In this document: in pieces, positions 4,108 through 37,563 of the stretch | Layout: each line of letters starts with the position of its first letter | How positions within the stretch are numbered: position 1 is the first letter of the stretch | From: a virus | Virus record (IMG/VR): IMGVR_UViG_3300013138_000011 | Coordinates: 1-45,160 of that record | Strand: one strand, 5' to 3' | Length of the DNA: 45,160 bases | The notes under the pieces: generated by a model | Told to the model about the DNA's origin: nothing | Databases searched by the model: none | Seen by the model: the letters and a program-made list of their open reading frames with translations, nothing else | Position numbers and translations under genes: made by a program

Positions 4108-4323
4108 CTATCCTTTTAGTATTGAAATAATTTGATAGTAATTGCTTCTTTCATGAGGAAACGTACAATTCTTACAATTTTGATAATCCTTATACTTTTT
4201 ATGAATACATAATTTCCTGCCATAAAGTGGGCAATAACAAAAAAGACAATTAATTTCTTTCATGTTTGGATGACAAGGATAATATTGACACTGTCTATTT
4301 TCGAAAAAATTATAATTATTCAA
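4108..4323 (-). CDS. Cysteine-rich small domain protein (PF04071-like)
   Basis: 71 residues with nine Cys and several His. The order FFENRQCQYYPCH, then NCLFCYCPLYG, then NCKNCTFPH matches the cysteine-rich small domain family (PF04071), usually a stand-alone bacterial or archaeal metal-binding protein or a fusion in cobalamin-related proteins. The full domain fits, so the gene is not truncated. It overlaps the start of its upstream neighbour (4320) by 4 bp and so is in the same operon. A metal-binding role is inferred from the cysteines; its job in a phage is unknown. Confidence 0.85.
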   Translation of the reverse strand: MNNYNFFENRQCQYYPCHPNMKEINCLFCYCPLYGRKLCIHKKYKDYQNCKNCTFPHERSNYYQIISILKG

Positions 4324-5291
4324 TTTCTTCTTCTAAATGAATGAGCAGGCCTCGGTTTTTTCAAAACATAATTTCTAGCTTCCAAATAATCTAAAAATAT
4401 TTTTTCTGGTCTATATGAGTATTCTTGTTTAGTATAATCTAAATTTTTCATAGCATCAGAAAGCTTTTTAGCATCTTTTTCTGTTAAAACCCTTATAATG
4501 CCATTATTTCCTCTAAAAACATAAAATCCATAAACTATATACTCTAGGCTCCGACGAAACTGTTTTCTACCGTCATCATTATCTCCTGTTTCAAACCTTA
4601 TAGCTGTTTGAGTTCCTATTATGTTTACACCAAGATTTTTTAATTGTTTCCATGTGTTTAAAAATTGTTTAGATGTTACATCCCAATCTTCAGGCCAATT
4701 TTTCTCAATTTCTTCTTTAGATTTAGGTTTCAATATGTTCTCAATTCCTTCATCAATTTTTCTTTCCTTTTCTCTATTAATCCATTGTTGAAGTTCCCTA
4801 TCCCGAACAACTTTTCCTTCAGGAGATTCTCTCCAAGCTATATATTCCGGATTGTCCCATTTAATGGTGGTTCCTCCATAATTTGCATCATGAAATTCAG
4901 GAGATTGTTTAATCCCCATTCGTAATCTAAAAACTAAATCTCTAACGGTAGATGGGTATAAATAAGCATGATCTTCGCTAATATGATAATCATGTTGTTC
5001 ATATGAATATTGTTTGTGTGTTTGTATCATAGCCATCGCGTCTCTCTTAGTTAGCACTTTTCCAATTTCCCAATTACCAGAAAACACTGCATATACTTTA
5101 ATGGTCATTTCATTAATACTCAAACTATAAAGCTCAAGAATTTCAACACCATGTGATTCTAATTCTTCAGCATATTTTTTGTATTTTTCCCATGACATTT
5201 TATGCCTTTCTCGAAATGCCTCTTGTATTTCTTCTTCGTTTTTAGGTCTTAAAATATCTTCTATAGATTCATATACTTTTTTAGCCTTCAT
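4320..5291 (-). CDS. Two-module protein with head-protease-like junctions
   Basis: 323 residues. The leader MKAKKVYE is followed by SIEDILRPKNEEEI, and a second junction KIDE-GIENILKPKSKEEI sits at residues 178-195, splitting the protein into halves of about 173 and 142 residues. Both halves contain a related motif late in the domain (VLTKRDAMAM / VLTEKDAKKL, then an aromatic-rich stretch), suggesting internal duplication. The junctions fit the [LI]-x-E|[AGS] rule of T4-type prohead proteases. The enzymatic function is not recognised. It overlaps both neighbours by 4 bp. Confidence 0.8.
   Translation of the reverse strand: MKAKKVYESIEDILRPKNEEEIQEAFRERHKMSWEKYKKYAEELESHGVEILELYSLSINEMTIKVYAVFSGNWEIGKVLTKRDAMAMIQTHKQYSYEQHDYHISEDHAYLYPSTVRDLVFRLRMGIKQSPEFHDANYGGTTIKWDNPEYIAWRESPEGKVVRDRELQQWINREKERKIDEGIENILKPKSKEEIEKNWPEDWDVTSKQFLNTWKQLKNLGVNIIGTQTAIRFETGDNDDGRKQFRRSLEYIVYGFYVFRGNNGIIRVLTEKDAKKLSDAMKNLDYTKQEYSYRPEKIFLDYLEARNYVLKKPRPAHSFRRRN
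4707..4751 (-). repeat. Internal DILKPKS module (residues 181-195)
   Basis: Second copy of the E-[SG]-I-x-[DN]-I-L-K-P-K-S-x-E-E-I motif within the 323-residue protein, preceded by a charged linker. It lies between the two half-proteins, where a processing site would be expected. Confidence 0.7.
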
Positions 5292-5704
5292 TTCTTTAGC
5301 TTTGATAATATTTTTAGTGCATCTGTATTTGATACATACAAGCAGTAATATGATTGCTTAACCTCATATTGAAATTCGTGTCTCGATCCAATATCTAATC
5401 GAGGTTTTAAAAATTCAACAATTTCATTAGCTAATTTTTGAGTCACAACCGTCACTATGACTTCCCATTGATAACCATTTGAAGATTTTTTAACTTCCCA
5501 TGGGGCAATGGCAATTACATCAGCCTCTCCCATAATAGGAATAGCGAAATGTTCAATTTTTGCAGAAATATCTTTATCATGCAATCTTTTTAATGTTTTT
5601 TGCAAATCGGAATAAGATATTCCAAATTGATTCTTAAAATCAGAACGAATTTGTTTTTGGGTCTTTCCTTTTAATATATCGTCTATGGATTCGTTTACGA
5701 ACAT
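5288..5704 (-). CDS. Single-module protein (leader MFVNE)
   Basis: 138 residues. A very short leader MFVNE is followed by SIDDILKGKTQKQIRSDF, the same module as in the next gene with LKPKS changed to LKGKT. The rest is a small alpha/beta domain of unknown function. Its stop overlaps the ATG of the following gene by 4 bp. Upstream is an A-rich leader of AATAAA repeats and no Shine-Dalgarno sequence, so it probably starts this small minus-strand transcript, or has its own translation signal after the 1152-residue gene. Confidence 0.8.
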   Translation of the reverse strand: MFVNESIDDILKGKTQKQIRSDFKNQFGISYSDLQKTLKRLHDKDISAKIEHFAIPIMGEADVIAIAPWEVKKSSNGYQWEVIVTVVTQKLANEIVEFLKPRLDIGSRHEFQYEVKQSYYCLYVSNTDALKILSKLKK

Positions 5705-5708
5705 CTAT

Positions 5709-5744
5709 CGATTTTATTTTATTTATTTATTTTATTTATTTATT
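5709..5744 (-). repeat. AATAAATAAAATAAA low-complexity leader
   Basis: Between two minus-strand genes, the minus strand reads as a run of AATAAATAAAA units, about 35 bases of only A and T with period 4 to 5 bases. Similar shorter runs precede the genes starting at 10623, 19539 and 21721. It may act as a late-promoter-like element or as an unstructured A-rich translation leader. Confidence 0.5.
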
Positions 5745-5747
5745 CAA

Positions 5748-8700: not shown

Positions 8701-9206
8701 TAAACCATAAAAACCCAAGGAAGAGTTCCTTTAATCTTATTTAATGTTTCATTAAGTTGGCTTAGATTGAATTTTTTTATTTTACTATCAAAATCACTTT
8801 GTTGCTGAACAATCTTAAGAAAATCATCACCTTCTAACTGATCTAATAAAGGAGAATTTTGAAAATAATCAGGATCTTCACATTCTAAAACAATCTCCGA
8901 AACTAAAGTATTGTCTAAATCATTCGAAGCAAACTTTGGTACTCTTCTTAAAAGCCTATCATTTTTAACGTATTCTAATATGTCATCATCTGTAAAATCC
9001 TTAGAGAATTTTTTATCTAAAAGAGATACTGCTTTCTTTTGAAGTAGAGATTTAAGTTGATTTAATAAGGGATTTAAAATAGCAAGCAAAGCAGTTCGTA
9101 AAAGTACTAAAGCTTTTGGTTTACTGAAGAACTCTTGGTCACTTTTAACTGCTTTATTAAAAACTCCATAGATGAATTTTTTTATTATATCTGATATTTT
9201 TCCCAT
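5748..9206 (-). CDS. Large membrane-active virion protein of the baseplate block
   Basis: 1152 residues. An amphipathic N-terminus (LLRTALLAILNPLLNQLKSLL) is followed by a coiled coil around residues 200-245 and a hydrophobic helix near 255-270 (FLDAIIVAALLAASVYIANR). A compact beta segment near 395-415 (SRVYSPVDGIVAKTLNNQ) resembles a biotinyl/lipoyl-type or M23-adjacent hairpin. A long helical part follows, then a Pro- and Gly-rich hydrophobic stretch near 795-865 and another coiled coil near 900-1030. No catalytic motif was found. Size, membrane segments and position between hub genes suggest a protein that is ejected or that contacts the envelope; the function is inferred. It overlaps the start of the GNAT gene's 3' end by 22 bp. 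Confidence 0.7.
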   Translation of the reverse strand: MGKISDIIKKFIYGVFNKAVKSDQEFFSKPKALVLLRTALLAILNPLLNQLKSLLQKKAVSLLDKKFSKDFTDDDILEYVKNDRLLRRVPKFASNDLDNTLVSEIVLECEDPDYFQNSPLLDQLEGDDFLKIVQQQSDFDSKIKKFNLSQLNETLNKIKGTLPWVFMVYSIVLKVKEFLNQNDHPSPYRGKYLQRELRVVAAILQQEKQKLQNLKPNLEEEKAALQNLKTESKEGIKEIGQQIDVMIASLKFLDAIIVAALLAASVYIANRKKYQKSSTEAFSENVGSLLCDVQIETADVSIISKPFEISLDCPVDPDDVAVVHEPIELKLDVTRLENCDLEPTAEELVIDAKDSNEIATKAIIDNQSSKNFNILVTKDQRVTIRTPLGTLGGSRVYSPVDGIVAKTLNNQIYLDDISDPESTYLEELMQKSQDLYQELNDTKYFLKDYYVNSLFPVMLKSSPLIDASISAAERLKILFSTGGISGRWDAAQKHLENAKKSYDKNIQKITGEDNVKKKAKNEELYKIKEEVDKEDDKFYGQLNTIAKTAINQSEVTLPKESEFALLEYYFDLYGQLMDNFDQSKTLIPFRDEIYKFMVERYFVDKWDEKKLTGRINDYCKKLSKGIFFHVTPDFFKEMNNRYKSNNQVSEVEAYVTSLGKKNKDLNETDKTSLVKRIMFMFNFSLEIKQMVENKYETKLNKYKATETEGNYIQTFCNNLWKQYNEVPKEIDQVMKELDDLGNSLTTYSIIDIDNDKYRFYGIGKERTCPESDDDDFTVSEHGFGDMKYWLKYCAFATLIGITNPAQSWSTGVPPPIGPIPFPVVYIPIKAFALNWGFIVLGISITGIYPFPWVLFGNLSSEHHVPVADPATIIRKNVEALKKPLTKGLKEFKQVTLKGYLDKTKAEIDNLTVELDEVSKRKREHKEEKPKRDRTLEDSEVVYVEQLAAWTEQNLILTERIATIKLNRFTLETKYKIVYDAYSGRKVKDFPDPTIKAIQKSEETINKQFEKLDQLIAKIDPMLAPLPISTKPNSASFALTIKNPKPVILIKDELNDNINTGVLNPIVEKFKIKSDDFMSKNFNSKMQNSIVNWKKYKAALKVAMPTIVTKDPFPKYQNLKPTNLPWVAFLFKDFTPTGAKTYGFPGFSPYPVG

Positions 9207-10510
9207 GCAAATTCAACCTTTTTAATAGATCTTAGTAATTGAGGATAATCAAAAAATATTATATTCATTCCATTAAAATCTGTTGGATAACCCCATGCCA
9301 ATTTTGCAACAGGATTTACACGATATGACATATTTTCGTATGTTAGAGGATGTTCAGCTCTTGCAACACTATTCCTTTGTGAATGGGATTTTTCGTCTAT
9401 TATGTTTGTTAATTTTTGAATTTCTTCAAATCCATGAGATTCCTCAATTATAAATTCTACATTTCCAGGATCTGACCCCATAGCCGCACATAAATCTTCT
9501 AATTCTTGGCATACTTCGCCATCTTCGTCGCTTGTTTGATCTATAAACTCTGCAGCATTTTGAGTTTCTTCTAAGTTTTCAACAAGTTCAATAACTGATT
9601 GTTTAATATCTTCTATCGATTTTGGTTTTAAAATGTCCGAAATAGATTCATTTACACCAAAAAACTTTTTAATAAAATCATCTGGAACTATAAATAGAGC
9701 AAACCCATCCGAATTTCCTAAGTAAGAATATTCTTTCCCTTCATAAATCCATTTAAATGCATCATTATCCCCCATATGTTTCCATAATGGGTTATCTCCA
9801 TTTACACCATTTTTAATATTCATATCGTTAAAGAATCGTCGAAGACTATCTAAATCTCCAAAATTGGCCCAATTAAATTGCAATGCCTTTAATGGTTTTT
9901 TTGTTTTAATATTTTTCGTTGATTGAATAATAGTTTCCTTAGCTTCTTTTGTTATATCAATTGTTTGATAATCACGAGGTAATGATCTAGATTGAAGATA
10001 GTCTGCCCCTTGTGTGGCATATTTAGACCATTTAGTATTTTTAACATAAAGATCTTTTTCAAAATAAAAGTCCTTAAAGTATTCATCTAAATAAGGATAT
10101 GTTAAAAATTCTGTTTGTAGTACATTGAAATTATATTTCTGTTTAAAATGCGACATAATAGATTGAGGATCTTTGGGCTTTAAAACATCTTTAAGACTTT
10201 CTTTAAGAATATCGGACATTCCTTCATCTAATCCTATTTCTTTATGAACAAATTTTGCACCTAATTCTGTTTTCAAAGAAGGTTTATAATGATAATCAGG
10301 ATTCTCTTGTTGAATATACTTCATGAGTCTTGAACCAAACCCCTGTCTACGGAATGCTGGACGAACAAAAATGTCGCTTATTGTTAGCTCATCATCATAT
10401 AAAACATATTGAGCTACACCGACAATTTCTCCATCTACAAAAATTCCAGCCTCACAATTTATTTGGCCTGAATACGCATTTAAAACCTCATTTGAATAAG
10501 TTATCTTCAT
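9185..10510 (-). CDS. GNAT acetyltransferase fused to two DILKPK modules
   Basis: 441 residues in three parts. Residues 1-90 form a GNAT N-acetyltransferase domain: the core strand ISDIFVRPAFRRQGFGSRLM contains the acetyl-CoA loop R-R-Q-G-F-G-S. At 94-113 a first junction (LDE-GMSDILKE-SLKDVLKPKD) contains two xE-[GS] sites, and at 286-302 a second (VNE-SISDILKPKS). Each junction precedes a separate domain of unknown function. If a prohead-type protease cuts here, it would release a free acetyltransferase and two further proteins. The substrate is unknown. A 38-codon gene overlaps the start (ATGA). Confidence 0.8.
   Translation of the reverse strand: MKITYSNEVLNAYSGQINCEAGIFVDGEIVGVAQYVLYDDELTISDIFVRPAFRRQGFGSRLMKYIQQENPDYHYKPSLKTELGAKFVHKEIGLDEGMSDILKESLKDVLKPKDPQSIMSHFKQKYNFNVLQTEFLTYPYLDEYFKDFYFEKDLYVKNTKWSKYATQGADYLQSRSLPRDYQTIDITKEAKETIIQSTKNIKTKKPLKALQFNWANFGDLDSLRRFFNDMNIKNGVNGDNPLWKHMGDNDAFKWIYEGKEYSYLGNSDGFALFIVPDDFIKKFFGVNESISDILKPKSIEDIKQSVIELVENLEETQNAAEFIDQTSDEDGEVCQELEDLCAAMGSDPGNVEFIIEESHGFEEIQKLTNIIDEKSHSQRNSVARAEHPLTYENMSYRVNPVAKLAWGYPTDFNGMNIIFFDYPQLLRSIKKVEFAWEKYQI
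9605..9649 (-). repeat. Internal DILKPKS module (residues 288-302)
   Basis: VNE-SISDILKPKSIEDI within the GNAT fusion, close to the consensus seen at protein N-termini elsewhere in the window. It separates the second and third domains. Confidence 0.7.
10172..10225 (-). repeat. Internal DVLKPKD module after the GNAT domain (residues 96-113)
   Basis: LDE-GMSDILKE-SLKDVLKPKD looks like two overlapping copies of the junction. It lies right after the GNAT fold ends. Confidence 0.65.
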
Positions 10511-10663: not shown

Positions 10664-11434
10664 TTATTTACTTATTAAAACATTGGTTGATGTGGCTGCT
10701 TGTTTTGCTTGTTCTACTAAACCTACATTCACTCCAGGTGTTGCAGGCATCTTTGCATCTATAGCAGTGGCCATTGTTGAAAGTAGTGGAAATAAAACTT
10801 CTGCTAAAACCGCATGACTGTAAGGACCTGGCCCTACTTTTGTTGTTTGATTTCCCGCAACTTTTACTTCATCTGCTACAACTTCAACCTTAGCTGCCGC
10901 TGAAATATTTATTTCATTTTTTGTAACTATGCGTAATTTATCTCCTTCAAGTTGTATTAACGAATCCTGATTTGCGTGTTGAATTGTAATCATTGAATCA
11001 GGAGAAATTTGTATGAAAGATTCGCGATAATAAATTTGAAACCCACTATTTCTCTGATAAATCATAGTCAATTCTTCATCCGGATCATAAAGTATTACAT
11101 GAGTTCCATCATAATCATCTTTAATTCTTTCTATTAATTGTGTATCAATGTTTTGTATAGTTGTATACTCAGGTGCATAAATGTCACCGTTGTTAAATTG
11201 AACACGAACTATTTGTCCTATTTTAGGAACAGAAAGAGATCCCGCACCATCACCTGCAAAAATAGTAGAGTTAACAGGAACTGCCCATGGTAAATCTTTA
11301 GAATCTATTTCATCCAATAGGCTAAATGGTCTTACTTGACATCTTCCTGAAAATAATGGATCAGAATTATTAACTACAACAGCAATCCAGTCATTATCTC
11401 TTAAGTTTTTTATTAAAAAATCAGGTGTTTTCAT
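10664..11434 (-). CDS. Baseplate hub spike protein, gp5 OB-fold type
   Basis: 256 residues. The N-terminal half has the gp5-type OB-fold signature: SGRCQVRPFSLLDEI, then DLPWAVPVNSTIFAGDGAG, then KIGQIVRVQFNNGDIYAPEY. A short beta-helix-like tail follows (repeated I-x-I and V-x-V strands) and then a C-terminal alanine-rich segment. There is no lysozyme domain, unlike T4 gp5. It should sit at the tip of the tail tube on the gp27-like hub. It overlaps the 830-residue gene by 4 bp. Confidence 0.85.
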   Translation of the reverse strand: MKTPDFLIKNLRDNDWIAVVVNNSDPLFSGRCQVRPFSLLDEIDSKDLPWAVPVNSTIFAGDGAGSLSVPKIGQIVRVQFNNGDIYAPEYTTIQNIDTQLIERIKDDYDGTHVILYDPDEELTMIYQRNSGFQIYYRESFIQISPDSMITIQHANQDSLIQLEGDKLRIVTKNEINISAAAKVEVVADEVKVAGNQTTKVGPGPYSHAVLAEVLFPLLSTMATAIDAKMPATPGVNVGLVEQAKQAATSTNVLISK

Positions 11435-13923
11435 GCATTATCAATTTTGTTTCTAGTTGCTTGACTAGGATTTGGTTGATTTAATTTTTCTTTTACTGCA
11501 TCTCCATCAGTTGCTTCTGAAAGTATATCGGTTTTCATCATATTTCCCCCAACATAATCTCCGTCGGTTGCTTCTGAAGAAGGACCAATCTTCTTACCTG
11601 CAAGTGTATCATTTGTTGCCTCAGATAATATTTTAGTTTTTTGCATATCTCCAACTACTTTATCTGCATGATGTCTATCTCGTGTTGCTTCTGATAATTG
11701 ATCTGTAGTTTGCATATCTCCTTTTATCATGTCATTAGTAGCTTCCGAAAGAATATCTGATTTTTGCAATCCTCCTTTAACAAAATCTTTATCTGTTGCT
11801 TCTGATATTATTAGAGTTTTTGATAAGTCTCCACTAATTAAATCACCATCAGTTGATTCAGAAATAATAGATGTTTTTAGTTGATTACCTTTTAGTTCAG
11901 CTTTCATTGTTGCCTGTGAAATAATAGGAGTTTTATAAAGATCTCCTTTAACCGAATCTCCATCTGTTGATTCTGAAATTTCAGATGTATATTGTTGATC
12001 TCCTTTAATAGGATCTTCATCAGTTGATTCAGATATAATATCTGTATTTGGCCCCTTATCATTTAAGTTAGCACCTGTAGCTGTAGAAAGTACCCCTGTT
12101 TGTTGTAGGGTTTCATCTTCAAGATTTCTTCCAGCAGTAGCGGAACTTGGAGTTCCTTCCATAACATATCCTGTATTTTCAAGATCTCTATCAGTAGCCC
12201 AAGAATAATCATTGACTGCTGGTTCAATCGCTCTCTCAACGATATTTTTATATTCTCCACGTCCTTCTACTCTTACAGGAATATTCATTTCTTGTGGTCC
12301 TCTTAAATCAGTTGCATATGATAAATCTTTAACAGCTTCCCATTGCCCTTGATTGGATAGTATCTGATTAGCTGCTCTAATAAACTCTAATTGATCTTCA
12401 TCAGTTGATTCTGATTGAGAAACACCAATTAGAAATTGCTTAAATGTATTATCTATTTTTTTATCTAATTGAGAAGAAGGAGCATTAGTTCCAGATTGAG
12501 CTTCTACAATAGCTCTTCTAATTAAACCAAAAACTTGATTAAAATCTTTTGATTCAATAGCTGCAACAGCTTGATTAAATGAAAATCCAAGACCAGGAAT
12601 TTTCATCATTTTGCCTTTATTATCTGCAGATGTTACAAAATTAACGGCAAATGACTTTCCAAATGTTATTGCATTTCCAACCCATGTTGCTGGATCCATT
12701 GGATCAGGATCAGTAGTTTCTTCTCCTCTTTGAGATTGAACTAAATAAGCACCAGGCCCCATTCTTTCTCCAAAAAAGGTTTGTTTATTTGTTTGTTGAT
12801 AATACGGAGTACCTGAAACGTGATCATCTTGAAAATAAGTATCTCCTTGGGCTTTTTGGTCCATATCGGCATATCGTAAATCACCGCTTCTTGATGATGC
12901 ATAATCTTCCTCTCTTGGAATTTCAACACCTCCAACGGTATCAGTAGCATTTGTTACTCTACCATTCATGTCTTTTGTTAATCCCTTTTCTTTAGAACGT
13001 TCAAGACCATTTAATCTATAATCATCTAAAATAAAATGAGTGAATATTGGATAAGTCAGAACTTCATTTACGTTTCCTACTTTTATTTTAAATTCTACGT
13101 TAACTTGATTCATTCCGCCTTCACCAGCAGCTGATAATAAATCTCTGTATGAAAAGTTAAATGAATTTATGTCAAATTCACACATTTGACATTCAATTAA
13201 ATATGTTGGTAATATTCCATTTAAAACTTGCAAATAAACGGGCTCATCAGATTTAGGACTTACCATTGATTGATGAAAAGTTCTAAATTCAGTAATATAA
13301 ATTTGAACATCAAAAAATCTCATTAAATCAGGTAACACCCATCTTTGATATGTGTCATCCCATACTATTTTTCTATATAGGTTTAATAAATAACTAACTC
13401 TTTGATCAATACCTTCTAACATTCTAAATGTTAATCTAACATCTTTTCCAACTCTTTGTCCTCTTTCAGGAACGACTCTAAGTAAATCTGATAATCCTTC
13501 TACAACTTGAAAATACCATTGAAAATTATCTTGAAGATCGTTCCATAACGTAATAAATTCCTTAAGCATTTCTGCTCTGGTAAATTCGTTACCATCTCTT
13601 AAATAATCAATTGAGGAATAAACATCTCGATTAAATTCAACAACATTTCTTCCACTATCCCCTGATCTTTGTTGCGCATCCACCTGATCAGGCATAAATA
13701 ATGGCATTGGCATTCTGTCATAATCTGTGTTGGTAAGAAGAACTCCATTAAAATGTCTAGACTTTTGACCAAACAATACGCGAAATGTTGCATATGTTGG
13801 TTCATCATATCTTTTGTCGAGGTAATTTATTCTCTGATCGATGGTTCCATATGTTGTATCTACAGGACCTACGACATTGTTAACTCCTCTAAAAAACTTA
13901 TATTGATTTGGTGTATTCGCCAT
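11431..13923 (-). CDS. Baseplate/tail structural protein with C-terminal SEAT repeats
   Basis: 830 residues. The first about 330 form a folded domain with a tube-protein-like pattern (VQIYITEFRTFH, then LIECQMCEFDINSFNF, then VEFKIKVGNV), which could be a gp48/gp54-like junction or initiator fold. A low-complexity middle follows. Residues from about 625 to the end are about eleven imperfect copies of a 17 to 23-residue unit with consensus [IL]-[IL]-S-E-[AS]-T-[DN]-G-D, then G-D-[LM]-x-K-T. It lies between the hub and spike genes, so baseplate is likely. The role of the repeats is unknown. Confidence 0.75.
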   Translation of the reverse strand: MANTPNQYKFFRGVNNVVGPVDTTYGTIDQRINYLDKRYDEPTYATFRVLFGQKSRHFNGVLLTNTDYDRMPMPLFMPDQVDAQQRSGDSGRNVVEFNRDVYSSIDYLRDGNEFTRAEMLKEFITLWNDLQDNFQWYFQVVEGLSDLLRVVPERGQRVGKDVRLTFRMLEGIDQRVSYLLNLYRKIVWDDTYQRWVLPDLMRFFDVQIYITEFRTFHQSMVSPKSDEPVYLQVLNGILPTYLIECQMCEFDINSFNFSYRDLLSAAGEGGMNQVNVEFKIKVGNVNEVLTYPIFTHFILDDYRLNGLERSKEKGLTKDMNGRVTNATDTVGGVEIPREEDYASSRSGDLRYADMDQKAQGDTYFQDDHVSGTPYYQQTNKQTFFGERMGPGAYLVQSQRGEETTDPDPMDPATWVGNAITFGKSFAVNFVTSADNKGKMMKIPGLGFSFNQAVAAIESKDFNQVFGLIRRAIVEAQSGTNAPSSQLDKKIDNTFKQFLIGVSQSESTDEDQLEFIRAANQILSNQGQWEAVKDLSYATDLRGPQEMNIPVRVEGRGEYKNIVERAIEPAVNDYSWATDRDLENTGYVMEGTPSSATAGRNLEDETLQQTGVLSTATGANLNDKGPNTDIISESTDEDPIKGDQQYTSEISESTDGDSVKGDLYKTPIISQATMKAELKGNQLKTSIISESTDGDLISGDLSKTLIISEATDKDFVKGGLQKSDILSEATNDMIKGDMQTTDQLSEATRDRHHADKVVGDMQKTKILSEATNDTLAGKKIGPSSEATDGDYVGGNMMKTDILSEATDGDAVKEKLNQPNPSQATRNKIDNA
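11440..12045 (-). repeat. Tandem repeat array encoding about 11 SE[AS]TDGD units
   Basis: Units are mostly about 60 bp, varying from about 51 to 69 bp in multiples of 3. Each carries a GCTTCTGA or GATTCAGA core (plus-strand reading) that encodes S-E-[AS]. Variable unit lengths and synonymous differences suggest protein-level selection rather than a recent DNA expansion. Confidence 0.85.
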
Positions 13924-13937
13924 GTTATTATTTTATT

Positions 13938-15551
13938 TTAAACTTGAACATTACTTGCTTGAACAGGAATAGGATCTGTAGGTATTGGTGTAGGCCATTC
14001 TCTTCTTGTTAGAATGAATGATTGCGAAAAATTTGAAATCATCGATCCAACAGATTCTTTTGTCCATGACAATGAAAATCCTTTTACCATATACCAACCA
14101 CTATAAAAATCATTTTTACGATCTCTTCCTTGCGCTTCTGGATTAACCAATTGATTTTCAATTGGGTCCATTCCAATTATTGCTATAGGTATTTTGTCTC
14201 CTCTAATTATGTTCATGTTAGCTCCTTGAACATTTATTTCGACATTTAATTTTTCTAATTCGGCTAAATTTATAGCATTATGTATTTGCGCTCTCAAATA
14301 GTTTGGATGATGGTTTCCTGTCCACTTAAGATTATCTTCGTTAGTATTGGCTGCTGTATATTGTATTCCCATCCAAGGGGCTCTTTGATATAAATTTGTA
14401 TAATCATAATTTGCTTTGGCTAATTCTCCTTCATTAATAGAAGGATCGTATTTAGCACGTCCTCTTAACAAAATATGACTATTTAGTTTCTCCTGATCAT
14501 AAGATGGAGATATTTTAAAATTCCAATATTTAGTACTCTTTGGATCTTTGTAAAGAGAATTCATATGTTCAAAAAATGAAGCATTCATAGATGCTCCATA
14601 TGTAAATGTCGTTGCAGAAGATTTGTTTACTGGTTTCCATTCAGTAATATAAAATGATGTAGTTCTATATCCGACATAGTTTGAAAATACTTTAGGCATT
14701 GTATTTGCTTTGTCTTGGGCTGTATCAGCACCCCAAGTCCATTGAGCATCAACGTTGTCTAATGAAATACCCTCATCTACATCATCTTCGGCACTCAATA
14801 ATTGTTTTTGAATGTTTACAAAATTTAAATTATAATAAATGTCAATCCAAGAATCATAAAAGGAATTTTCATTTTTCCAAGATCGAGATGTTAAATGATT
14901 AACAAAATCTTCTGGCGAATCTACAGAAAACCATATTTGAGAATCATCTGTGTCTTCGTCGTTTGTGTTAAATCCTAATGATAATTCTTTGGCAACACTT
15001 TTCATAACTTGTAAAGCAGTTCCTTTATAGGCTTCAGATCCGATATAACTTCTTAATCCTGGGACAAATAATTCTCCAAAAAATGTTACACTTACCGGTC
15101 TGGTTCCTGAGGCTACCCTGCGTCCTGGGGTGACTCCAGTGATGACGTAATCGTTTCTTATAATATTCAATGCATCCGACTTACTTCTTATCGCAATAGA
15201 AATAACATCTCCATCTTTTGGCATTTCTTTATCCATAAATTTGTCACTTATGAATGTTACTTGTAATGTAATTGTTGGAAGAAAATTTCGACAATCAATG
15301 TTCATAAAATCTAATTCCTGATGAGAGATAAAATAATTATTTATCTTTATCAATGGATATTCCATTGAGGCAATATCTTCCATCTTCTTTGAATCACTAT
15401 CTGTGCTCTTAGGAAGCGATAATTCATCCAATACAATTGAAGGCTTAAATATGTTATAAATGCGATATTTAATCCCCTTTTGAGAATTAGATGGATTAGC
15501 TGTTAAGCTTTCCTTTGATGGTGGAGTATATATGTAAGTAGGTGTTGGCAT
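13938..15551 (-). CDS. Baseplate hub protein, gp27/gpD-like
   Basis: 537 residues. Strings of beta strands typical of the late-control gpD/gp27 hub family are visible: an early strand set around ITLQVTFISDKF, a KDGDVISIAIRSKSDALNIIRNDYVITGVT segment, then the GTALQVMKSVAKELSLGF helix seen in these proteins. A later strand set ends at FYSGWYMVKGFSLSWTK. It should form the hub on which the adjacent OB-fold spike sits. Its stop is just upstream of the 830-residue gene, and its ATG overlaps the stop of the upstream neighbour by 1 bp. Length is normal for a hub with an insert. Confidence 0.8.
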   Translation of the reverse strand: MPTPTYIYTPPSKESLTANPSNSQKGIKYRIYNIFKPSIVLDELSLPKSTDSDSKKMEDIASMEYPLIKINNYFISHQELDFMNIDCRNFLPTITLQVTFISDKFMDKEMPKDGDVISIAIRSKSDALNIIRNDYVITGVTPGRRVASGTRPVSVTFFGELFVPGLRSYIGSEAYKGTALQVMKSVAKELSLGFNTNDEDTDDSQIWFSVDSPEDFVNHLTSRSWKNENSFYDSWIDIYYNLNFVNIQKQLLSAEDDVDEGISLDNVDAQWTWGADTAQDKANTMPKVFSNYVGYRTTSFYITEWKPVNKSSATTFTYGASMNASFFEHMNSLYKDPKSTKYWNFKISPSYDQEKLNSHILLRGRAKYDPSINEGELAKANYDYTNLYQRAPWMGIQYTAANTNEDNLKWTGNHHPNYLRAQIHNAINLAELEKLNVEINVQGANMNIIRGDKIPIAIIGMDPIENQLVNPEAQGRDRKNDFYSGWYMVKGFSLSWTKESVGSMISNFSQSFILTRREWPTPIPTDPIPVQASNVQV

Positions 15552-16315
15552 TACGAAATATGATCTTTAATATAACTTCTAATTTCTTTAACTGTTTGAA
15601 CAGTTCTATTATGATAGAAAACTCCTGAAATTTTATCATCTGCATGAGATGTATCTAAAAAAGATATTTGTGGAAATTTATGATGGTGGCTCTGTGATAA
15701 AAGGAACTTTCCGGTTTTTCCTTTGTTTGTAACAGTAAAAAATACTCTTGCATCCGCCCACCCTTCTCCTATATCGAGTTGATATTCTTGATCAGGAAAC
15801 AAATCATAAAAAATCTTTACAAAATCTGGATATGTTTTTTCAAATTGCATTTTATTCCAAATTCTACGATGTCCAGGTATTAGGTCCTTTATTTCTTCTT
15901 TCGATTTTGGTTTGAAAATATCTTGAGTACTTTCAACTAACCCTTCGTGTTCCATACCTAAATAATGTTTTAAATCTTCGAGATCTTCTAAGTGATAATC
16001 AGATCCTCCATTATCAAAAACAATATAAACATCATTTTCTTCAGCAATAAAACCTAGAGTAAACTCTCCAATTTCCCCTGTATGATAAATAGATTCCTCT
16101 TTTGTCATTGGTGATGTTGTTTCAAATTGAAAGCCAAACATACCAGACATAAAACCCAAATCTGATATAATATCATATTTACCAGAAGAACGAACTAATT
16201 CATAACAGTCTTCTACAAATTTCATTTTGTCTTGTGGAATTGCTCTCGATATTTCGTCTTCTGTCTTAGGTTTTAAAACATCACTTAAGGCTTCATTTAT
16301 TGTTTTAGCTTTCAT
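15551..16315 (-). CDS. Two-module protein (leader MKAKTINE)
   Basis: 254 residues. The leader MKAKTINE meets ALSDVLKPKTEDEI at residues 9-22, and a second junction GLVE-STQDIFKPKSKEEI lies at 125-142. Two small domains of about 110 residues each would result if both were cut. The first has IYHTGEIGEFTLGFI, the second a VFFTVTNKGKTGKFLL strand pair; neither fold is recognised. Both neighbours are baseplate genes with 1 bp overlaps, so it is expressed with the virion block. Confidence 0.8.
   Translation of the reverse strand: MKAKTINEALSDVLKPKTEDEISRAIPQDKMKFVEDCYELVRSSGKYDIISDLGFMSGMFGFQFETTSPMTKEESIYHTGEIGEFTLGFIAEENDVYIVFDNGGSDYHLEDLEDLKHYLGMEHEGLVESTQDIFKPKSKEEIKDLIPGHRRIWNKMQFEKTYPDFVKIFYDLFPDQEYQLDIGEGWADARVFFTVTNKGKTGKFLLSQSHHHKFPQISFLDTSHADDKISGVFYHNRTVQTVKEIRSYIKDHIS
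15890..15934 (-). repeat. Internal DIFKPKS module (residues 128-142)
   Basis: LVE-STQDIFKPKSKEEI, the internal copy of the junction in the 254-residue protein. Confidence 0.7.
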
Positions 16316-19539: not shown

Positions 19540-19556
19540 TCTAATGGATTTTTATT

Positions 19557-19564
19557 TATTTATA
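19557..19564 (-). promoter_or_regulatory. TATAAATA, T4-late-promoter-like
   Basis: On the minus strand TATAAATA lies 18 bp upstream of the 862-residue gene, in the divergent gap with the plus gene at 19614. T4 late promoters use exactly this octamer as their sole core. The gap is AT-rich, so chance is possible. Confidence 0.4.
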
Positions 19565-19613
19565 TATTCAATAGAGTTAATAAGTGTGCTAAGATAAATA
19601 AAATAAAAATCAT

Positions 19614-20372
19614 ATGAAATTAGTTAAAGAATCGGTTGAAGATATTTTAAAGCCTAAGGATCTTGATTTAACACAAAAATGGTTGTGGACATTTAAACAT
19701 TCAACAAGTGATCATCATGCTATGCGAATTTATCAAGAGGCTAAAAAACAAGGAGTAAAATTACCAGCAAAGGAATTATTAGAATTTGCACATAGAATAA
19801 AAAATTTATCTCTATTTAAAGAGGCTGTCGATAGATTAACAACAAATCCTGATAAAAAATTAAATTTAGCAGCTCAATACGGAGATTTAAATTATTTTAA
19901 AGAGATCATTGAACAAGGTGGGCGAGTTAGTTTTGGATTAGTAAGAAAACTTTCTAATGATTATCATTATAGTAGATCTAAAAATATAGAAGAGTATGTG
20001 CGCCAAAATATAGATTCAATTGTCAAGGAAGAAGATTTAGAAAAAGTTCATGATGCGCTAGATGCAAAAGATCAGCCATATAAAAGTTATCCCAAAGGTT
20101 ATAAACAATATAGAGTGTTAAAGTATATTAATGATAATAAAGTAACTAGACGTTTAGAACTTATTAAATTGATATATGAAATGGGATATGGTCCTGGATC
20201 TTTTAATAAAATAAGAAGCGCCTCATATTGGAGTGCCTCATTCAGACAAATAATTGGCCAATATTACGATATTGGTGATGACGGATATTTTGTATTAAAT
20301 GATGATGGTAGAGATAAATTAAGAGAACTCTCCGCTAAATTTGCCGGCAAAAAAATAGACTCATACGTTTAA
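19614..20372 (+). CDS. Single-module protein with ankyrin-like helices
   Basis: 252 residues on the opposite strand to its neighbours. Leader MKLVKE, then SVEDILKPKDLDLTQKW. The centre is helical with an ankyrin-like signature (KKLNLAAQYGDLNYFKEIIE). The C-terminal about 75 residues, from YKQYRVLKYINDN onward, look like a winged-helix: three helices and a wing ending DDGYFVLNDDGRDKL. It may bind DNA or protein; inferred. The upstream region shares an AATAAAATAAAAA leader. Its stop overlaps the convergent gene by 4 bp. Confidence 0.75.
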   Translation: MKLVKESVEDILKPKDLDLTQKWLWTFKHSTSDHHAMRIYQEAKKQGVKLPAKELLEFAHRIKNLSLFKEAVDRLTTNPDKKLNLAAQYGDLNYFKEIIEQGGRVSFGLVRKLSNDYHYSRSKNIEEYVRQNIDSIVKEEDLEKVHDALDAKDQPYKSYPKGYKQYRVLKYINDNKVTRRLELIKLIYEMGYGPGSFNKIRSASYWSASFRQIIGQYYDIGDDGYFVLNDDGRDKLRELSAKFAGKKIDSYV

Positions 20373-26879: not shown

Positions 26880-27319
26880 AAGGAATCAAAAAAATCATCA
26901 ATAGTCATTACTTCTAATATACCTTGGTGCTGTGCTGAAATAATTTGTGGATATTGAATACCATTGTCTCCAGATAATTTCATACCTTGATTATAATTAA
27001 ATTTTAATTGTTTTAATTTAGAAGCATTAATAACAATTCCATTCAAAAAGTTTTCATTTGAACTTTCATATAGAATAAAGTATTCTCCGATAAAACTTTC
27101 AAGAGATCTTTGCGAAATACCCCCTCCCTTAACATCAACGCGTATAATTAAATCCTTAGGAAAAATTATATAATCTCCATGTCGTAAATCAAAATCACTA
27201 CTCCATTTGTATGCATTTTTAGTACTTAAATAGATAATGTTTTTTGATCGACACTTAGACTCAAATTTTTCGCAATTGTTGTCACCTATATTATTTCTTT
27301 CTTGAAATGATAAACTCAT
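26876..27319 (-). CDS. Possible PD-(D/E)XK nuclease-like protein
   Basis: 147 residues. An N-terminal helix (NNCEKFESKCRSKNI), a strand with a GDY acidic core (FDLRHGDYIIF), then D-V-K in LIIRVDVKGGG are arranged like a PD-(D/E)XK nuclease: acidic residue, then D-x-K. The order and spacing fit loosely, but no flanking domain supports it. Alternatives are an unrelated alpha/beta protein. It shares the operon with the dCMP hydroxymethylase-like gene. Confidence 0.5.
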   Translation of the reverse strand: MSLSFQERNNIGDNNCEKFESKCRSKNIIYLSTKNAYKWSSDFDLRHGDYIIFPKDLIIRVDVKGGGISQRSLESFIGEYFILYESSNENFLNGIVINASKLKQLKFNYNQGMKLSGDNGIQYPQIISAQHQGILEVMTIDDFFDSL

Positions 27320-28197
27320 TATCTTAGTTTTTCAAAACACCAATTTAAAAGATCATTATCAGTATTGACATTATAATCAGGCATCATTCCAGTTCTTATC
27401 TGACTAAATATAGAAACATACTTATCTTTGATAGTACCATCTTCATTTATAATAGTTTCATTTAAAAGAGGAATTGATTCATTTTCAAATGGTTCATCTA
27501 TCATCTTTGAAACTAATTCATAATGTCTTTCATACAAATGCATCGAGTGACTTATATGCGTATAAGAACCCATTTCAAGCTCAGGATAATATTTCTTCAT
27601 ATCTAAAAATACATGATAGTGAAGAATGCTAAAGAAAGCCCAGTCAGTCATAAAACCATAAATGACGTCATTGCTTCTCATTGTAATAGTCATATAAAGT
27701 TTATTATTTCGAATATGAAATAACGCTTGAAGTGTACAAACTTGGTCTTTATTTCCAAACCATTGATGTTTTGGTTTATTGAAATGCATGAAAGCTTGGC
27801 GACTATCCTTATCCTTCTTAAGGGATTCAATCACCCATTGATATTGGGTGATACTATGTTCATTCTTATCTTCAAACAATAGATTCCCATATGCGCTGTT
27901 TATAGTGCCATCAGGGTTATGTATGCCTTTCCAGAGTGAAGCATAATTCTCAATATATGCTGGATTATTTGTTCCAGAAAAATACCACAATAGTTCAGCA
28001 GCAATATATTTTGTTGGAGAACCTCTATGTTTATTAGTATAAAGATTGATCATTGGTTTATCAATTTCTAATGAGCAATCTCTTATTTCACGAACTTCCA
28101 TTCCTCTTGGAGATGTGATAAAATCGGGAAATGTCCAAAGATCTCTTAATACTTGTCGAAAAGCATCAGAGATATGTGTTGTTTGATAAAGTTTCAT
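27319..28197 (-). CDS. Thymidylate synthase-family enzyme, dCMP hydroxymethylase-like
   Basis: 292 residues, full length. The family core is intact: catalytic Cys164 (VCTLQALFHIRNNK), then MRSNDVIYGFMTDWAF at 183-198 and SMHLYERHYELV later. At the position of the Asn that binds dUMP in thymidylate synthase (E. coli Asn177), this protein has Asp (Asp195), as in T4 dCMP hydroxymethylase (Asp179); the MRSNDV-x(2)-GF-x(2)-D block also matches T4 gp42. It would convert dCMP to 5-hydroxymethyl-dCMP with methylene-tetrahydrofolate. A thymidylate synthase role cannot be excluded. Confidence 0.85.
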   Translation of the reverse strand: MKLYQTTHISDAFRQVLRDLWTFPDFITSPRGMEVREIRDCSLEIDKPMINLYTNKHRGSPTKYIAAELLWYFSGTNNPAYIENYASLWKGIHNPDGTINSAYGNLLFEDKNEHSITQYQWVIESLKKDKDSRQAFMHFNKPKHQWFGNKDQVCTLQALFHIRNNKLYMTITMRSNDVIYGFMTDWAFFSILHYHVFLDMKKYYPELEMGSYTHISHSMHLYERHYELVSKMIDEPFENESIPLLNETIINEDGTIKDKYVSIFSQIRTGMMPDYNVNTDNDLLNWCFEKLR

Positions 28198-30637: not shown

Positions 30638-31447
30638 TTATAAGTTTTCTGGTAATTGGAATCCATAATCCATTGCACAAGTACCGAATTTATTTTTTGC
30701 GTATGGATCTAATCCCATTTCTAAAAACAACTCGGCAATTTTCATATTTCCAAATTTTATGGACTGTAATAGAAGATTGTTTTCTTCATTATCGACAATA
30801 TTAATATTAGCTCTTTTTTCTATTAATAGTTTAACATTTTCTATGCGATTGTTTGCAATGCTCGCAGTTAGTGGGGTTAATGGAAACATTGTGTCGTTAT
30901 ATTCATAATTAACATCAGCCCCATATTCAATTAAAAGTTTAGTTATTTCTAAGTAACCACTTATACAAGATTGAATAAGAGGTGATAGTTTGCCAATATT
31001 TGGATCTGCACCATGTTCTAATAATAATTGAACAATACGTTTTTTTCCAAATTGAACAGCATTAAATAGAGCAGTTTCTCCTTCATTGTTTTGAAAATTT
31101 ATATCTACATTTCCATTCAATATTAAGGTAAATAATTCTCTAAAATCTATATCATCACCTTGTCTTTTTGCTAAACTAGTTAATAAGTTTTCTCCTAACG
31201 AATTAACATAATTTAAATCGATATTGTTTTTAACAAATTTTTCTAAAATACTATAATCATTGACCAGAAATATTGTATCAGAAAATTGTTTAGGATCTTT
31301 GGCTGATTTTAATATAACATCAACCATTACTTCATCATCAATATGCTTCGCTAAAAACGCCCGTTTCTCCTTATCTGGTAACTCGACTATTGACTGATAA
31401 ATTTGATCTTGAGTTTTAGGAACTAATATTCTACTAATCGACGTCAT
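30638..31447 (-). CDS. Ankyrin-repeat protein with degenerate N-terminal module
   Basis: 269 residues. The start MTSISRILVPKTQDQIYQSI is a version of the D-I-L-K-P-K-S-x-E-E-I module without the xE-S junction. Ankyrin repeats run from about residue 70 to 260, with typical units such as ALFNAVQFGKKRIVQLLLEHGADPN and LTASIANNRIENVKLLIEKRANIN. Ankyrins bind protein partners. If delivered to the host it could be an effector; that is inference. Confidence 0.85.
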   Translation of the reverse strand: MTSISRILVPKTQDQIYQSIVELPDKEKRAFLAKHIDDEVMVDVILKSAKDPKQFSDTIFLVNDYSILEKFVKNNIDLNYVNSLGENLLTSLAKRQGDDIDFRELFTLILNGNVDINFQNNEGETALFNAVQFGKKRIVQLLLEHGADPNIGKLSPLIQSCISGYLEITKLLIEYGADVNYEYNDTMFPLTPLTASIANNRIENVKLLIEKRANINIVDNEENNLLLQSIKFGNMKIAELFLEMGLDPYAKNKFGTCAMDYGFQLPENL

Positions 31448-32506: not shown

Positions 32507-32877
32507 TCGGTTTCTACAGTCATTTTTATGAATTCTTTTAGGGGATCTACGTCTTTAGCCCCGTATTTTTCGATGTCACTAAGAACAGTTAGTTCTATAG
32601 AATTATCTATCTTTGTTCCATCTTCAAATGTAAACCAAACACCAACACTGTCAATTAAAACATTATCTATTTTAGTTAATAACTCATTGTATATTATTGA
32701 AGAAGATTGCAATATAAAATCATCATATTGCTCTTCGGCTACTGAATGTTCTTTGACATATTTTTCAATATCTAAAGAAGCAGAACATTTAACCATAAAA
32801 TTTGATTTACCTTCTTCTTGCGAATCGCCTTCTTTTTTCATAAGGCTCATTTTTAATTCTTTTACCTTTTTCATCAT
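32503..32877 (-). CDS. Hypothetical protein (124 aa)
   Basis: 124 residues. A lysine-rich N-terminus (MMKKVKELKMSLMKKEGDSQ) precedes an alpha/beta body with VGVWFTFEDGTKIDNSIELT. No module junction at its start. It overlaps both neighbours within a tight cluster of module genes. No family recognised. Confidence 0.6.
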   Translation of the reverse strand: MMKKVKELKMSLMKKEGDSQEEGKSNFMVKCSASLDIEKYVKEHSVAEEQYDDFILQSSSIIYNELLTKIDNVLIDSVGVWFTFEDGTKIDNSIELTVLSDIEKYGAKDVDPLKEFIKMTVETE

Positions 32878-33518
32878 TACATATTTTTAATCATCTCAAA
32901 AGTTTCATCTCCCCAAAAGAAATTTAGTATAGGTTCTATTGCTCCTACAGATGTACCATAAAAACTTATTCCTGAACCATCATTCCAATCTACAGAGCTT
33001 TCTTTATCTGTATTAATTTTAGCCAAAGTCATATTCTGAAAATCATTCTCATATTTCTTGAAAAAATGTTCAAGAAATTCGATCACTTCTTCTTTAGTTT
33101 GAATAGGCATAAATTCTAAATCCCATGATTTATCATCAAACACCATCATTATGGAGTAAAATCCAGGACCCTTAAATAATGAATCCTTTATTTGATCTGA
33201 TGATTTTGGTTTTAAAATTTCTGCTCCTTCATTCAATGAACTAATATTTCGCTGCACCTGTATTATCATTTGTATGTGGGGTTTGGAAACCAGTTTTCCA
33301 GTTAAGGCATATTTATCATTTATTGTTCCTATCTTTTTAAACCCATATATTTTATGTGTGTCCCAGTTCCACTGAAAGTTGTATAAATTAGAATTACGGA
33401 CAGCATCATAAGATCCATCTCTGTTTTGATAGATTTTTAAACGATTATCTGATTCATTAATTTTTATTGCTCTCACAACACCACCATCTAATTCTATTTC
33501 TCGTAATATAGCTCTCAT
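32877..33518 (-). CDS. Module protein with two junctions
   Basis: 213 residues. Near the start VRAIKINE-SDNRLKIY (residues 15-23) and at 95-110 a second LNE-GAEILKPKSSDQI. The ATG at 33518 is favoured by a 4-bp overlap, but a GTG at codon 15 would create MRAIKINE, matching leaders of neighbouring genes. A domain with strands SIMMVFDDKSWDLEFMPI follows the second junction. Function unknown. Confidence 0.75.
   Translation of the reverse strand: MRAILREIELDGGVVRAIKINESDNRLKIYQNRDGSYDAVRNSNLYNFQWNWDTHKIYGFKKIGTINDKYALTGKLVSKPHIQMIIQVQRNISSLNEGAEILKPKSSDQIKDSLFKGPGFYSIMMVFDDKSWDLEFMPIQTKEEVIEFLEHFFKKYENDFQNMTLAKINTDKESSVDWNDGSGISFYGTSVGAIEPILNFFWGDETFEMIKNM
33189..33230 (-). repeat. Internal EILKPKS module (residues 97-110)
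   Basis: LNE-GAEILKPKSSDQI in the 213-residue protein, a copy of the junction with one residue fewer than usual between E-G and ILKPK. Confidence 0.65.
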
Positions 33519-33970
33519 GAGTTTAAATAAATATATGCTCTAAGATCCTCGACAATACTATTTGTATTCGGTTTTCCTGGAGACCACCCCAGCAGTGGCC
33601 ATTTTTGAGTTCCAATATGCCAAGAAAAAGATGGTAGTTTTCTAAATTGTGCTACAGAAGGCGCACCCGCATCATATAAATTTGTAGCCTTATAATCATA
33701 AATTGTTACTATATTTCCTAAATCATCTTCTAAAACCCATTCTGATGAAACTTTATACTCATCTCCTTCACTATTTGGCTTACCAAATAACTTAACTAAA
33801 GTTTTATAAGATGTTTCTATTTCTCCGCTTAAGGAAGTTCCATAATCTTTTTTAGGATCAGTTGGTCTGAATGTAGCATCTTTTCTTCCTTTTAAAGAAG
33901 CCAAAACATCTTCTCTAGATTTAGGTTTGAGTAAATCTTCTATGGATTCATAAACTTTTTTAGCTATCAT
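33515..33970 (-). CDS. Single-module protein (leader MIAKKVYE)
   Basis: 151 residues. MIAKKVYE meets SIEDLLKPKSREDVLASL, very like the gene at 5291. The body holds TDPKKDYGTSLSGEIETSYK, then EWVLEDDLGNIVTIYDYK and a strand FSWHIGTQKW, resembling a small beta domain of unknown function. It overlaps genes on both sides by 4 bp. Confidence 0.8.
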   Translation of the reverse strand: MIAKKVYESIEDLLKPKSREDVLASLKGRKDATFRPTDPKKDYGTSLSGEIETSYKTLVKLFGKPNSEGDEYKVSSEWVLEDDLGNIVTIYDYKATNLYDAGAPSVAQFRKLPSFSWHIGTQKWPLLGWSPGKPNTNSIVEDLRAYIYLNS

Positions 33971-36391: not shown

Positions 36392-37051
36392 ATGAAATTA
36401 CACGAAAGTTTGAGCGCTTATAGAGATTATAAATTCTTTTCTTTGTTAGAAGAAAAAGAAAAAGCTAAGAAGGATTTCTTCCAAAAGAAAGACGATAAAA
36501 AAGAAGGCAAAAAGGAAGATAAAAAGAATCCTAAAAAAGGAGCTAAAGATCCAGAAAAAGCACTTCAGGAAAAAGAAGCTGCCCAAGCTGCAAAAGATGC
36601 TATGGACATTGTAAAAAAAGTTCGTGACAACTTTGCAAGATTTAAAAGCTTTGCAGGTAACCAAGTTGGTGAATACAAGAAATTTTGGGATATGCAAACT
36701 AAAGCTACTCAAGCTGTTTGTGCAAAAGATCCTGCATGCAAAGTATGTTATGCATTATTTGTTGATGGAACTTCAGATAAGTATAGCCCAAGTTATTTAA
36801 TTTGCTTAAGAAACGTTGAGGGAAACCTATCTCTTTCAGTCTATAAAACCCATCTTGAAGAAGGTGAAGAAAACCCAACATTCACTGTATCAAATGATCA
36901 AGCTGAAAATGAATTTAAAACTTTCTTTGCAGAACTTAAAAAAGAATTAGCTGATGTTAAAACAAACTACATTAAGAATATAGAGACTAAGAAGAAAGAA
37001 GAAGAACATCAAAAGAAAAGAGAAAAGCTTGACAAATTCTTAAAAGCATAA
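36392..37051 (+). CDS. Highly charged internal-protein-like gene (leader MKLHE)
   Basis: 219 residues. MKLHE-SLSAYRDYKF fits the xE-S junction. Then comes a strongly basic-acidic stretch (KKDDKKEGKKEDKKNPKKGAK), a helical core with four Cys (AVCAKDPACKVCYALF) and a final lysine-rich helix. Charge and leader fit an internal head protein. Starts a plus-strand operon with the next gene, overlapping by 1 bp. Confidence 0.7.
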   Translation: MKLHESLSAYRDYKFFSLLEEKEKAKKDFFQKKDDKKEGKKEDKKNPKKGAKDPEKALQEKEAAQAAKDAMDIVKKVRDNFARFKSFAGNQVGEYKKFWDMQTKATQAVCAKDPACKVCYALFVDGTSDKYSPSYLICLRNVEGNLSLSVYKTHLEEGEENPTFTVSNDQAENEFKTFFAELKKELADVKTNYIKNIETKKKEEEHQKKREKLDKFLKA

Positions 37052-37563
37052 TGCGTGCTAGATTTATAAATGAAGCAAAGTATTGGGATGAATCATCCCC
37101 TTACATGGCAGAATATCAAGAATTTTGGGAAGAATTAGTTCCTCGTGAAGGAGAAGCTGACACACTTCAAGGAGAATTACTCCGCATGATTTCTCGTATA
37201 TATTTTTCGTATGATTATTATAATAATGGCTTTGGCAACGATAGATCTGAAGAAGCCGAATTTTTAAATCAACATGCTAATTTATTTAAACCTCAAATGA
37301 GAGATCCCAATGTATGGGACACTTTTTACAATCTTTATGAGGATATTGCTTTTGGAAATGATACAGAATTTTATAAAAAGGTTGAAGACGAATATGGAGC
37401 CGATTATGATGATGAAGATGATTTTGACCCATATTCAATGGATTCAATTGAAGATTATATAAAAAGAAACCACTGGGATGTTGAAAAACATCTAGATGAA
37501 ATAATGGATGGTGTTGTAAAATACATCCGTTTAACTAGAGAAAAACTAGAACCTTTACATTAA
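37051..37563 (+). CDS. Acidic protein with leader MRARFINE
   Basis: 170 residues. MRARFINE-AKYWDESSPY has the basic leader and I-N-E-A junction found elsewhere in the window, but without LKPKS. The rest is very acidic and helical, with a D/E-rich patch (YGADYDDEDDFDPY). It may be a mature head-internal or DNA-mimic-like protein; inferred from composition. It ends just before a hairpin terminator. Confidence 0.7.
   Translation: MRARFINEAKYWDESSPYMAEYQEFWEELVPREGEADTLQGELLRMISRIYFSYDYYNNGFGNDRSEEAEFLNQHANLFKPQMRDPNVWDTFYNLYEDIAFGNDTEFYKKVEDEYGADYDDEDDFDPYSMDSIEDYIKRNHWDVEKHLDEIMDGVVKYIRLTREKLEPLH

Follow-up and report, generated by a model that had tools for sequence, protein, structure and literature searches.

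The capsid-targeting sequences (CTSs) of IPI, IPII and IPIII of phage T4 are cut by gp21, as are the propeptides of Alt and gp24, and the T4 CTSs have been shown by experiment to be sufficient for packaging (PMC9026906), as has an N-terminal signal of the P1 protein DarB (PMC9024508). Here we analysed a stretch of viral DNA of 45,160 nucleotides (IMG/VR record IMGVR_UViG_3300013138_000011, positions 1 to 45,160; hereafter the window), and in it the open reading frame (ORF) 9185-10510, whose product of 441 amino acids (aa) is a multidomain phage protein that joins a GNAT acetyltransferase domain to two further domains. The original prediction had noted in this protein two junctions resembling protease sites, and had proposed that the acetyltransferase enters the cell with the DNA. 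We find that these junctions belong to a short tag that recurs on many proteins of this phage and its relatives, and that ORF 9185-10510 would be among the cargo genes of a modular tagging system that extends across the phage. This modular cargo tag, of putative role and with dialects that differ between phages, appears to be a new form of the T4 capsid-targeting principle.

The tag is a module of about 20 residues, [hydrophobic]xE(S/A/G)xxD(I/V)LKPKSxEEI, opened by the four-letter sites (a hyphen within a motif marks the predicted cut). The regular expression [LIVMFYT]xE[SAGTN]xx[DEN][ILVMF]LKPK matches nine copies in the window and 28 in G001, a contig of 259,840 bp, where shuffled proteins give 0.005 and 0.05, respectively. 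G001 is one of two IMG/VR relatives found through the 441-aa protein (84% identity), the other being G002 (34,137 bp, 38%). A hidden Markov model (HMM) of the tag finds 10 copies in seven window proteins, with an N-terminal copy on five window genes, and 62 copies on 52 of the 331 G001 genes, 38 of which carry an N-terminal copy; all genes are simple longest-ORF calls. The usual place of the tag is N-terminal behind a leader (e.g. MKAKFVYE-) with the consensus M(K/R)AK(F/L)(V/I)xE, followed by Ser or Ala; otherwise the tag lies between domains. Leader-like N-termini occur on 34 G001 genes, compared with 1.8 in random windows. Internal copies keep the hydrophobic-x-Glu site (xE-(S/G)) and have lost the MKAK part, as would be expected if a protein had to be targeted only once but cut at every join. 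The copies in the window are about 60% identical in DNA, which rules out that they are recent DNA duplicates.

We refer to the part of the tag after the predicted cut site (DILKPKSxEEI in the dialect of the window) as module 2. Glu followed by Ser, Ala, Gly, Asn or Thr lies within 8 residues upstream in 84 of the 111 distinct module-2 copies, 70 of them at one spacing (chance expectation 13%), and the spacing between the Glu and module 2 may shrink while the Glu is kept (MKAKKVYESSILKPKT, SLNEGAEILKPKS). Searches with the tag DNA pattern added 11 contigs, and the leader pattern 10 more; these are not all independent, since near-identical stretches are common to some of them. In related phages, DILKPKSEEEI is replaced by HLAPRSEEEL or by NFERGxDPKxxMxIG: after the leader we find IKHLAPRSEEEL in G015 and G019, and NFERGxDPKxxMxIG in G022, G024 and G026; single proteins of G026 bear as many as four tags. 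No contig mixes dialects, homologous cargo domains carry different dialects in different phages, and unrelated cargoes in this phage group have the same tags. G024, which comes from the same sample as G001, was considered as its missing part and ruled out by its FERG dialect. Each of the three dialects has a short form as well (MSIGDILKPKS, MSIKHLTPRS and MNFERGKDPK), with its start codon at the would-be cut.

Matches to the leader pattern in bacterial and archaeal genomes are limited to three, scattered over unrelated taxa. The exact ILKPK DNA pattern had no match in PAU, PTm1, Lak-B5 or LR756500, and neither a synthetic tag peptide nor ORF 4320-5291 matched any of the named phages. The open-access full-text literature yielded CTSs, DarB and polyvalent proteins, and nothing that describes dialects or a repeated tag common to many proteins.

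To describe the promoters, we built a position weight matrix (PWM) from five virion genes of G001 (TTGAATATATAAATAAAA); this sequence contains TATAAATA, which we take to be the T4 late consensus. High-scoring late promoters stand at 30 of 50 leader-tagged operon heads and at 73 of 305 untagged ones, a 2.5-fold enrichment (p = 7e-7), whereas short-form operon heads show no excess (7 of 23; long versus short, p = 0.018). An initial comparison under a loose definition of the tag was not significant (p = 0.10), and stricter definitions were. Upstream of the tagged ORF 19614-20372 a late-like site scores 10.6. For ORF 9185-10510 we found no late promoter of its own; it depends on the run upstream, across a gap of 153 bp. 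A packaged protein should itself show late expression, and late expression is therefore no argument against packaging. As side observations, TTGAATATATAAATAAAA occurs at G001 operon heads such as 40721, 78133 and 248831, in a phage of the Lak/PTm1/PAU kind, and a second promoter type, TATATTTG, precedes some other G001 genes.

Sites similar to those in the tag are found in the capsid proteins of the relatives. The major capsid proteins (MCPs) of G014, G024, G025 and G026 carry ALNE-A(A/E)MGG aligned with FLTE-AEIGG of T4 gp23, and in G014, G024 and G025 similarity identifies gp21-like scaffold-protease proteins, which have about 2.5-4 times more such sites than expected (11 versus 2.7 in G025; in PTm1, 21 versus 2.2). 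The Pfam gp21 family (PF03420) gave no match, and the gp23 family (PF07068) gave in G001 a weak fragment that we judge to be chance. In phage PAU, leaders of the form MKT(L/I)(S/T)xL(Y/F)E(S/A) are present on genes around the portal, protease and MCP, of which two were named 'internal capsid protein' and one 'scaffolding' by the depositors; T4 gp24 begins MAKINELLRES. The idea of head-protease-like junctions is thus borne out to the extent that the sites are part of a tag on dozens of proteins, with a leader resembling T4 CTSs, late-type promoters on the operons, and like sites in the MCP and scaffold of relatives; Alt-type delivery is a sensible comparison. At 100-121 kb in PAU, N-termini of this leader form, very similar to T4 CTSs, occur on many genes without assigned function, and Lak-B5 has shared N-terminus families that end in E-S, M(N/K)KxxKxLYESIMKSxSK... 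and MNKxIKRLxESLFDDD.

The reading that we favour, and consider rather probable, is that this is a modular capsid-targeting and prohead-protease tag from which injected polyproteins are built. The leader would act like a T4 CTS and end at a predicted prohead-protease cut before Ser or Ala, and module 2, the phage-specific dialect, would stay on the product after the cut. The prohead would take up tagged proteins late in infection, and a gp21-type protease inside it would cut after Glu at Glu-Ser/Ala/Gly sites. Multi-tag proteins would enter as polyproteins and be divided into their single domains, and the cut pieces would be injected along with the DNA. The product of ORF 9185-10510 would yield three pieces in this way, the GNAT domain, domain 2 and domain 3, with acetylation of host proteins as the presumed outcome. 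As for module 2, it may either contribute to the packaging signal or serve the protein as a docking signature inside the host.

Several observations weigh against capsid targeting. There are 27 of the 111 module-2 copies in which the Glu followed by Ser, Ala, Gly, Asn or Thr is lacking, several of them being direct-start forms or having Glu followed by another residue. Module 2 is also found, with neither leader nor Glu, on a conserved DNA helicase of G001 (194397-196172, plus strand) as an 18-residue N-terminal extension, MGMTDILKPKSKDEL, that is not in the homologs of G014, G018, G020 and G021; homologs of this protein are annotated as DNA helicase in PAU and PTm1. Module 2 itself therefore need not mean packaging. 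PTm1, a relative, has no clear leader family. The promoter matrix comes from five sites and was applied after the idea arose. Neither the MCP nor the protease was detected in the window or G001, both of which are incomplete, and G025 is the sole contig in which the ILKPK dialect occurs together with both. Finally, ORF 9185-10510 starts MKITYSNEVLNAYS, with no leader or tag at its N-terminus.

The short forms and the tagged helicase suggest a host docking role for module 2, and this leads to a variant that we hold only tentatively. Effectors would exist in two versions with the same final N-terminus, a long one from which the leader is cut and a direct-start short one made in the cell, such that module 2 would serve docking in the host and the leader would be the packaging ticket. 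A further step, which seems to us less likely again, is that the tag is unrelated to the capsid and acts in the infected cell as a docking or sorting signal for a phage compartment, a shared adaptor or a host target, with the Glu-Ser part helical and uncut. The keeping of module 2 as one dialect per phage, also on leaderless proteins including the helicase, is in agreement with this, as is the lack of a late-promoter excess for short-form genes. However, docking alone leaves three things unexplained: the xE(S/A) that closes the leader and resembles the sites in MCP and scaffold, the spacing from Glu to module 2, which can shrink while the Glu is kept, and the similar leaders that PAU has around its portal, protease and capsid genes.

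Domain-plus-tag units have been gained and lost among these phages. In the GNAT gene, about 317 bp that lie between two tags in G001 (the end of a domain, followed by a stop and a start) are absent from the window, so that tag 1 of the window is a fusion of two G001-type tags, joined at TTAAAG, and the G001 counterpart is split into two ORFs. In G002 the ORF stops at the position of the second tag and is without domain 3. ORF 15551-16315 is without a zinc-ribbon-like domain plus tag that G001 has at the internal tag. A stand-alone leader-tagged protein of G001 (67927-68406, 159 aa) is homologous to internal segments of proteins of 560 and 704 aa in G002 and G009, and these segments begin at their tags. 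Such exchange, with the two-tag fusion in the window, is also what one would predict if the tag were a structural linker or N-terminal cap, spread by recombination and aiding domain shuffling, neither cut nor recognised. We regard this as improbable, because the DNA identity of about 60% between window copies points to constraint on the protein and not to recent copying, most tags are N-terminal, where no linker is needed, and the dialects separate by phage though the cargo families are shared.

ORF 9185-10510 is present as the original prediction described it, with RRQGFGS in the GNAT domain and LDE-G and VNE-S at the joins. Within aa 1-93, Pfam matches Acetyltransf_1 (1.6e-9) and Acetyltransf_7 (7.2e-9), each above the cut-off, and the match includes R54-R55-Q-G-F-G-S60, a form of GNAT motif A (Q/R-x-x-G-x-G/A). 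The AlphaFold2 model of this segment has a mean predicted local distance difference test score (pLDDT) of 83.6 and a predicted template modelling score of 0.72, and with it Foldseek retrieves the bacterial GNATs RibT, RimI and AAC at probability 1.00, with E only about 2e-3. The domain is minimal, as its 93 residues go in the model directly from strand 1 to strand 2. Sequence and model thus confirm that aa 1-93 form a small GNAT domain, with putative acetyltransferase activity. Domains 2 and 3 (aa 118-285 and 307-441) had no match in Pfam, PHROGs or PDB sequences, and a structure model for all 441 aa, predicted with four sequences, was too poor for use (mean pLDDT 39.5). The tag HMM places tags solely at aa 94-117 and 286-306, the latter join reading VNE-SISDILKPKSIEDI. 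The two junction sites named in the original prediction (aa 94-97 and 286-289) stand, but a third, LKE-S at aa 102-105, had been overlooked, and four-letter sites of the form [LIVMF]xE[SAG] by themselves are near chance in this protein (5 versus 2.5 expected). No peptidase family scored above the Pfam cut-off in this protein or in 20 tagged G001 proteins. As to the acetyltransferase entering with the DNA, the GNAT domain is the sole domain here without a preceding leader or tag, and its predicted packaging and delivery is therefore the weakest part of the earlier claim.

The gene lies within the baseplate run, directly after that of a spike-like OB-domain protein, and overlaps the start of the gene of a 1152-aa protein, which G001 and G002 have conserved in this position; the adjoining tail gene has, among named phages, only distant relatives, in Lak, PTm1 and PAU. 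That location, with the overlap onto a conserved gene, would suit a baseplate or tail accessory protein whose GNAT domain modifies or assembles tail parts, but this is very unlikely given that the architecture varies among close relatives (two ORFs in G001, no domain 3 in G002), an unusual trait in a structural subunit, and that the tag is on many genes elsewhere in the genome.

Table 1. Tags, leaders, promoters and domains in the window.
Feature	Position	Strand	Remarks
Internal tag of ORF 4320-5291, KIDE-GIENILKPKSKEEI	4686..4769	-	Tag HMM 34.1 bits
Leader + tag of ORF 4320-5291, MKAKKVYE-SIEDILRPKNEEEI	5208..5291	-	N-terminal; HMM 47.7 bits
N-terminal tag of ORF 5288-5704, MFVNE-SIDDILKGKTQKQI	5630..5704	-	Tag HMM 41.1 bits
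T4-late-like promoter TTGAATAAATAAATAAAATA, upstream of tagged ORF 5288-5704	5728..5747	-	PWM 19.2
ORF with GNAT, tag scar, domain 2, tag, domain 3	9185..10510	-	441 aa
Domain 3, aa 307-441, no recognised family	9188..9592	-	Not in G002
Tag 2, aa 286-306, VNE-SISDILKPKSIEDIKQ	9593..9655	-	Tag HMM 37.6 bits
Domain 2, aa 118-285, no recognised fold	9656..10159	-	Final domain in G002
Tag 1, aa 94-117, LDE-GMSDILKE-SLKDVLKPKDPQS, two tags merged	10160..10231	-	Comparison with G001
GNAT acetyltransferase domain, aa 1-93, no preceding leader or tag	10232..10510	-	Pfam, AlphaFold2, Foldseek
Internal tag of ORF 15551-16315, GLVE-STQDIFKPKSKEEI	15875..15955	-	HMM 35.2 bits
Leader + tag of ORF 15551-16315, MKAKTINE-ALSDVLKPKTEDEI	16232..16315	-	N-terminal; HMM 42.5 bits
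T4-late-like promoter TTGAATATATAAATAAATAA, heads baseplate run including GNAT ORF	19552..19571	-	PWM 17.9
N-terminal tag of ORF 19614-20372, MKLVKE-SVEDILKPKD	19614..19691	+	Tag HMM 34.1 bits
Short form (module 2 without leader), ankyrin-repeat ORF 30638-31447, MTSISRILVPKTQDQI	31400..31447	-	
Internal tag of ORF 32877-33518, SLNE-GAEILKPKSSDQI	33186..33236	-	Tag search
Leader + tag of ORF 33515-33970, MIAKKVYE-SIEDLLKPKSREDV	33887..33970	-	N-terminal; HMM 43.7 bits
Leader alone, without ILKPK module, ORF 37051-37563, MRARFINE-A	37051..37077	+	

Other genes of the window and of G001 also deserve mention. Among the tagged cargo of this phage group ankyrin repeats are common, and the tagged ORF 5288-5704 (minus strand, 138 aa) has a weak Pfam match to Immunity protein 51 (6.2e-5, below the cut-off). 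Adjoining two tagged genes is a SET-domain protein of 422 aa (33967-35235, minus strand; Pfam 1.4e-11), unusual in a phage. An 830-aa protein of the baseplate region (11431-13923, minus strand) has in its C-terminal part at least 8 repeats of (I/L)SE(S/A)T(D/N), retained in G001; the protein as a whole has 12 Glu-Ser/Ala sites against 4.6 expected. Two glucosyltransferase-family genes by PHROGs (41150-42340 and 43482-44210, plus strand) suggest that the phage DNA is glucosylated, and a thymidylate synthase-family gene lies at 27319-28197. In G001, a protein of 1425 aa (212950-217227, minus strand) that combines a helicase with an Eco57I-type methylase starts MIVCES and recalls P1 DarB, the injected anti-restriction protein.

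Should the leader be a packaging signal, one could read from sequence which proteins the giant phages of this uncultured group inject. There would be about 50 of them in one incomplete genome of 260 kb, mostly without assigned function, from which candidates for counter-defence and takeover could be taken directly, and injected polyproteins would be assembled from interchangeable domain-plus-tag units. The tags may also be of use as simple and portable signals with which to load phage heads, and the dialects raise the question of what reads each phage's own version.

Similar to the CTSs of T4, the system described here has a short N-terminal leader with hydrophobic-x-Glu before Ala or Ser on unrelated proteins of one phage, and the likeness would extend to delivery of protein with the DNA, which in our case is predicted from sequence. 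Unlike in T4, tens of proteins per phage are tagged, polyproteins contain the tag repeatedly, and the predicted cut site is followed by a second conserved module that is specific to the phage. In P1, the DarB signal lies within the N-terminal 30 residues and the cargo is injected (PMC9024508), and the helicase-methylase of G001 has a leader-like start; among the Dar proteins of P1 no common sequence was detected (PMC9024508), whereas many proteins in our case have one signal in common, which also recurs within them. Polyvalent proteins are likewise multidomain, with GNAT and conflict domains, are thought to be packaged and injected, and processing has been proposed for them (PMC5512222); they often carry their own peptidase, in place of which we find short Glu-Ser/Gly tags suited to a head protease. 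The inner-body and ejection proteins of phiKZ and SPN3US resemble our case in being many head proteins of a jumbo phage that are cleaved after Glu with few other determinants, but their propeptides are mostly long, with no single shared leader and no dialect-type module described after the cut (PMC5694885). In Sphingomonas phage PAU, an N-terminal leader family is likewise found on many small genes, although its leader sequence differs and the ILKPK pattern is absent.

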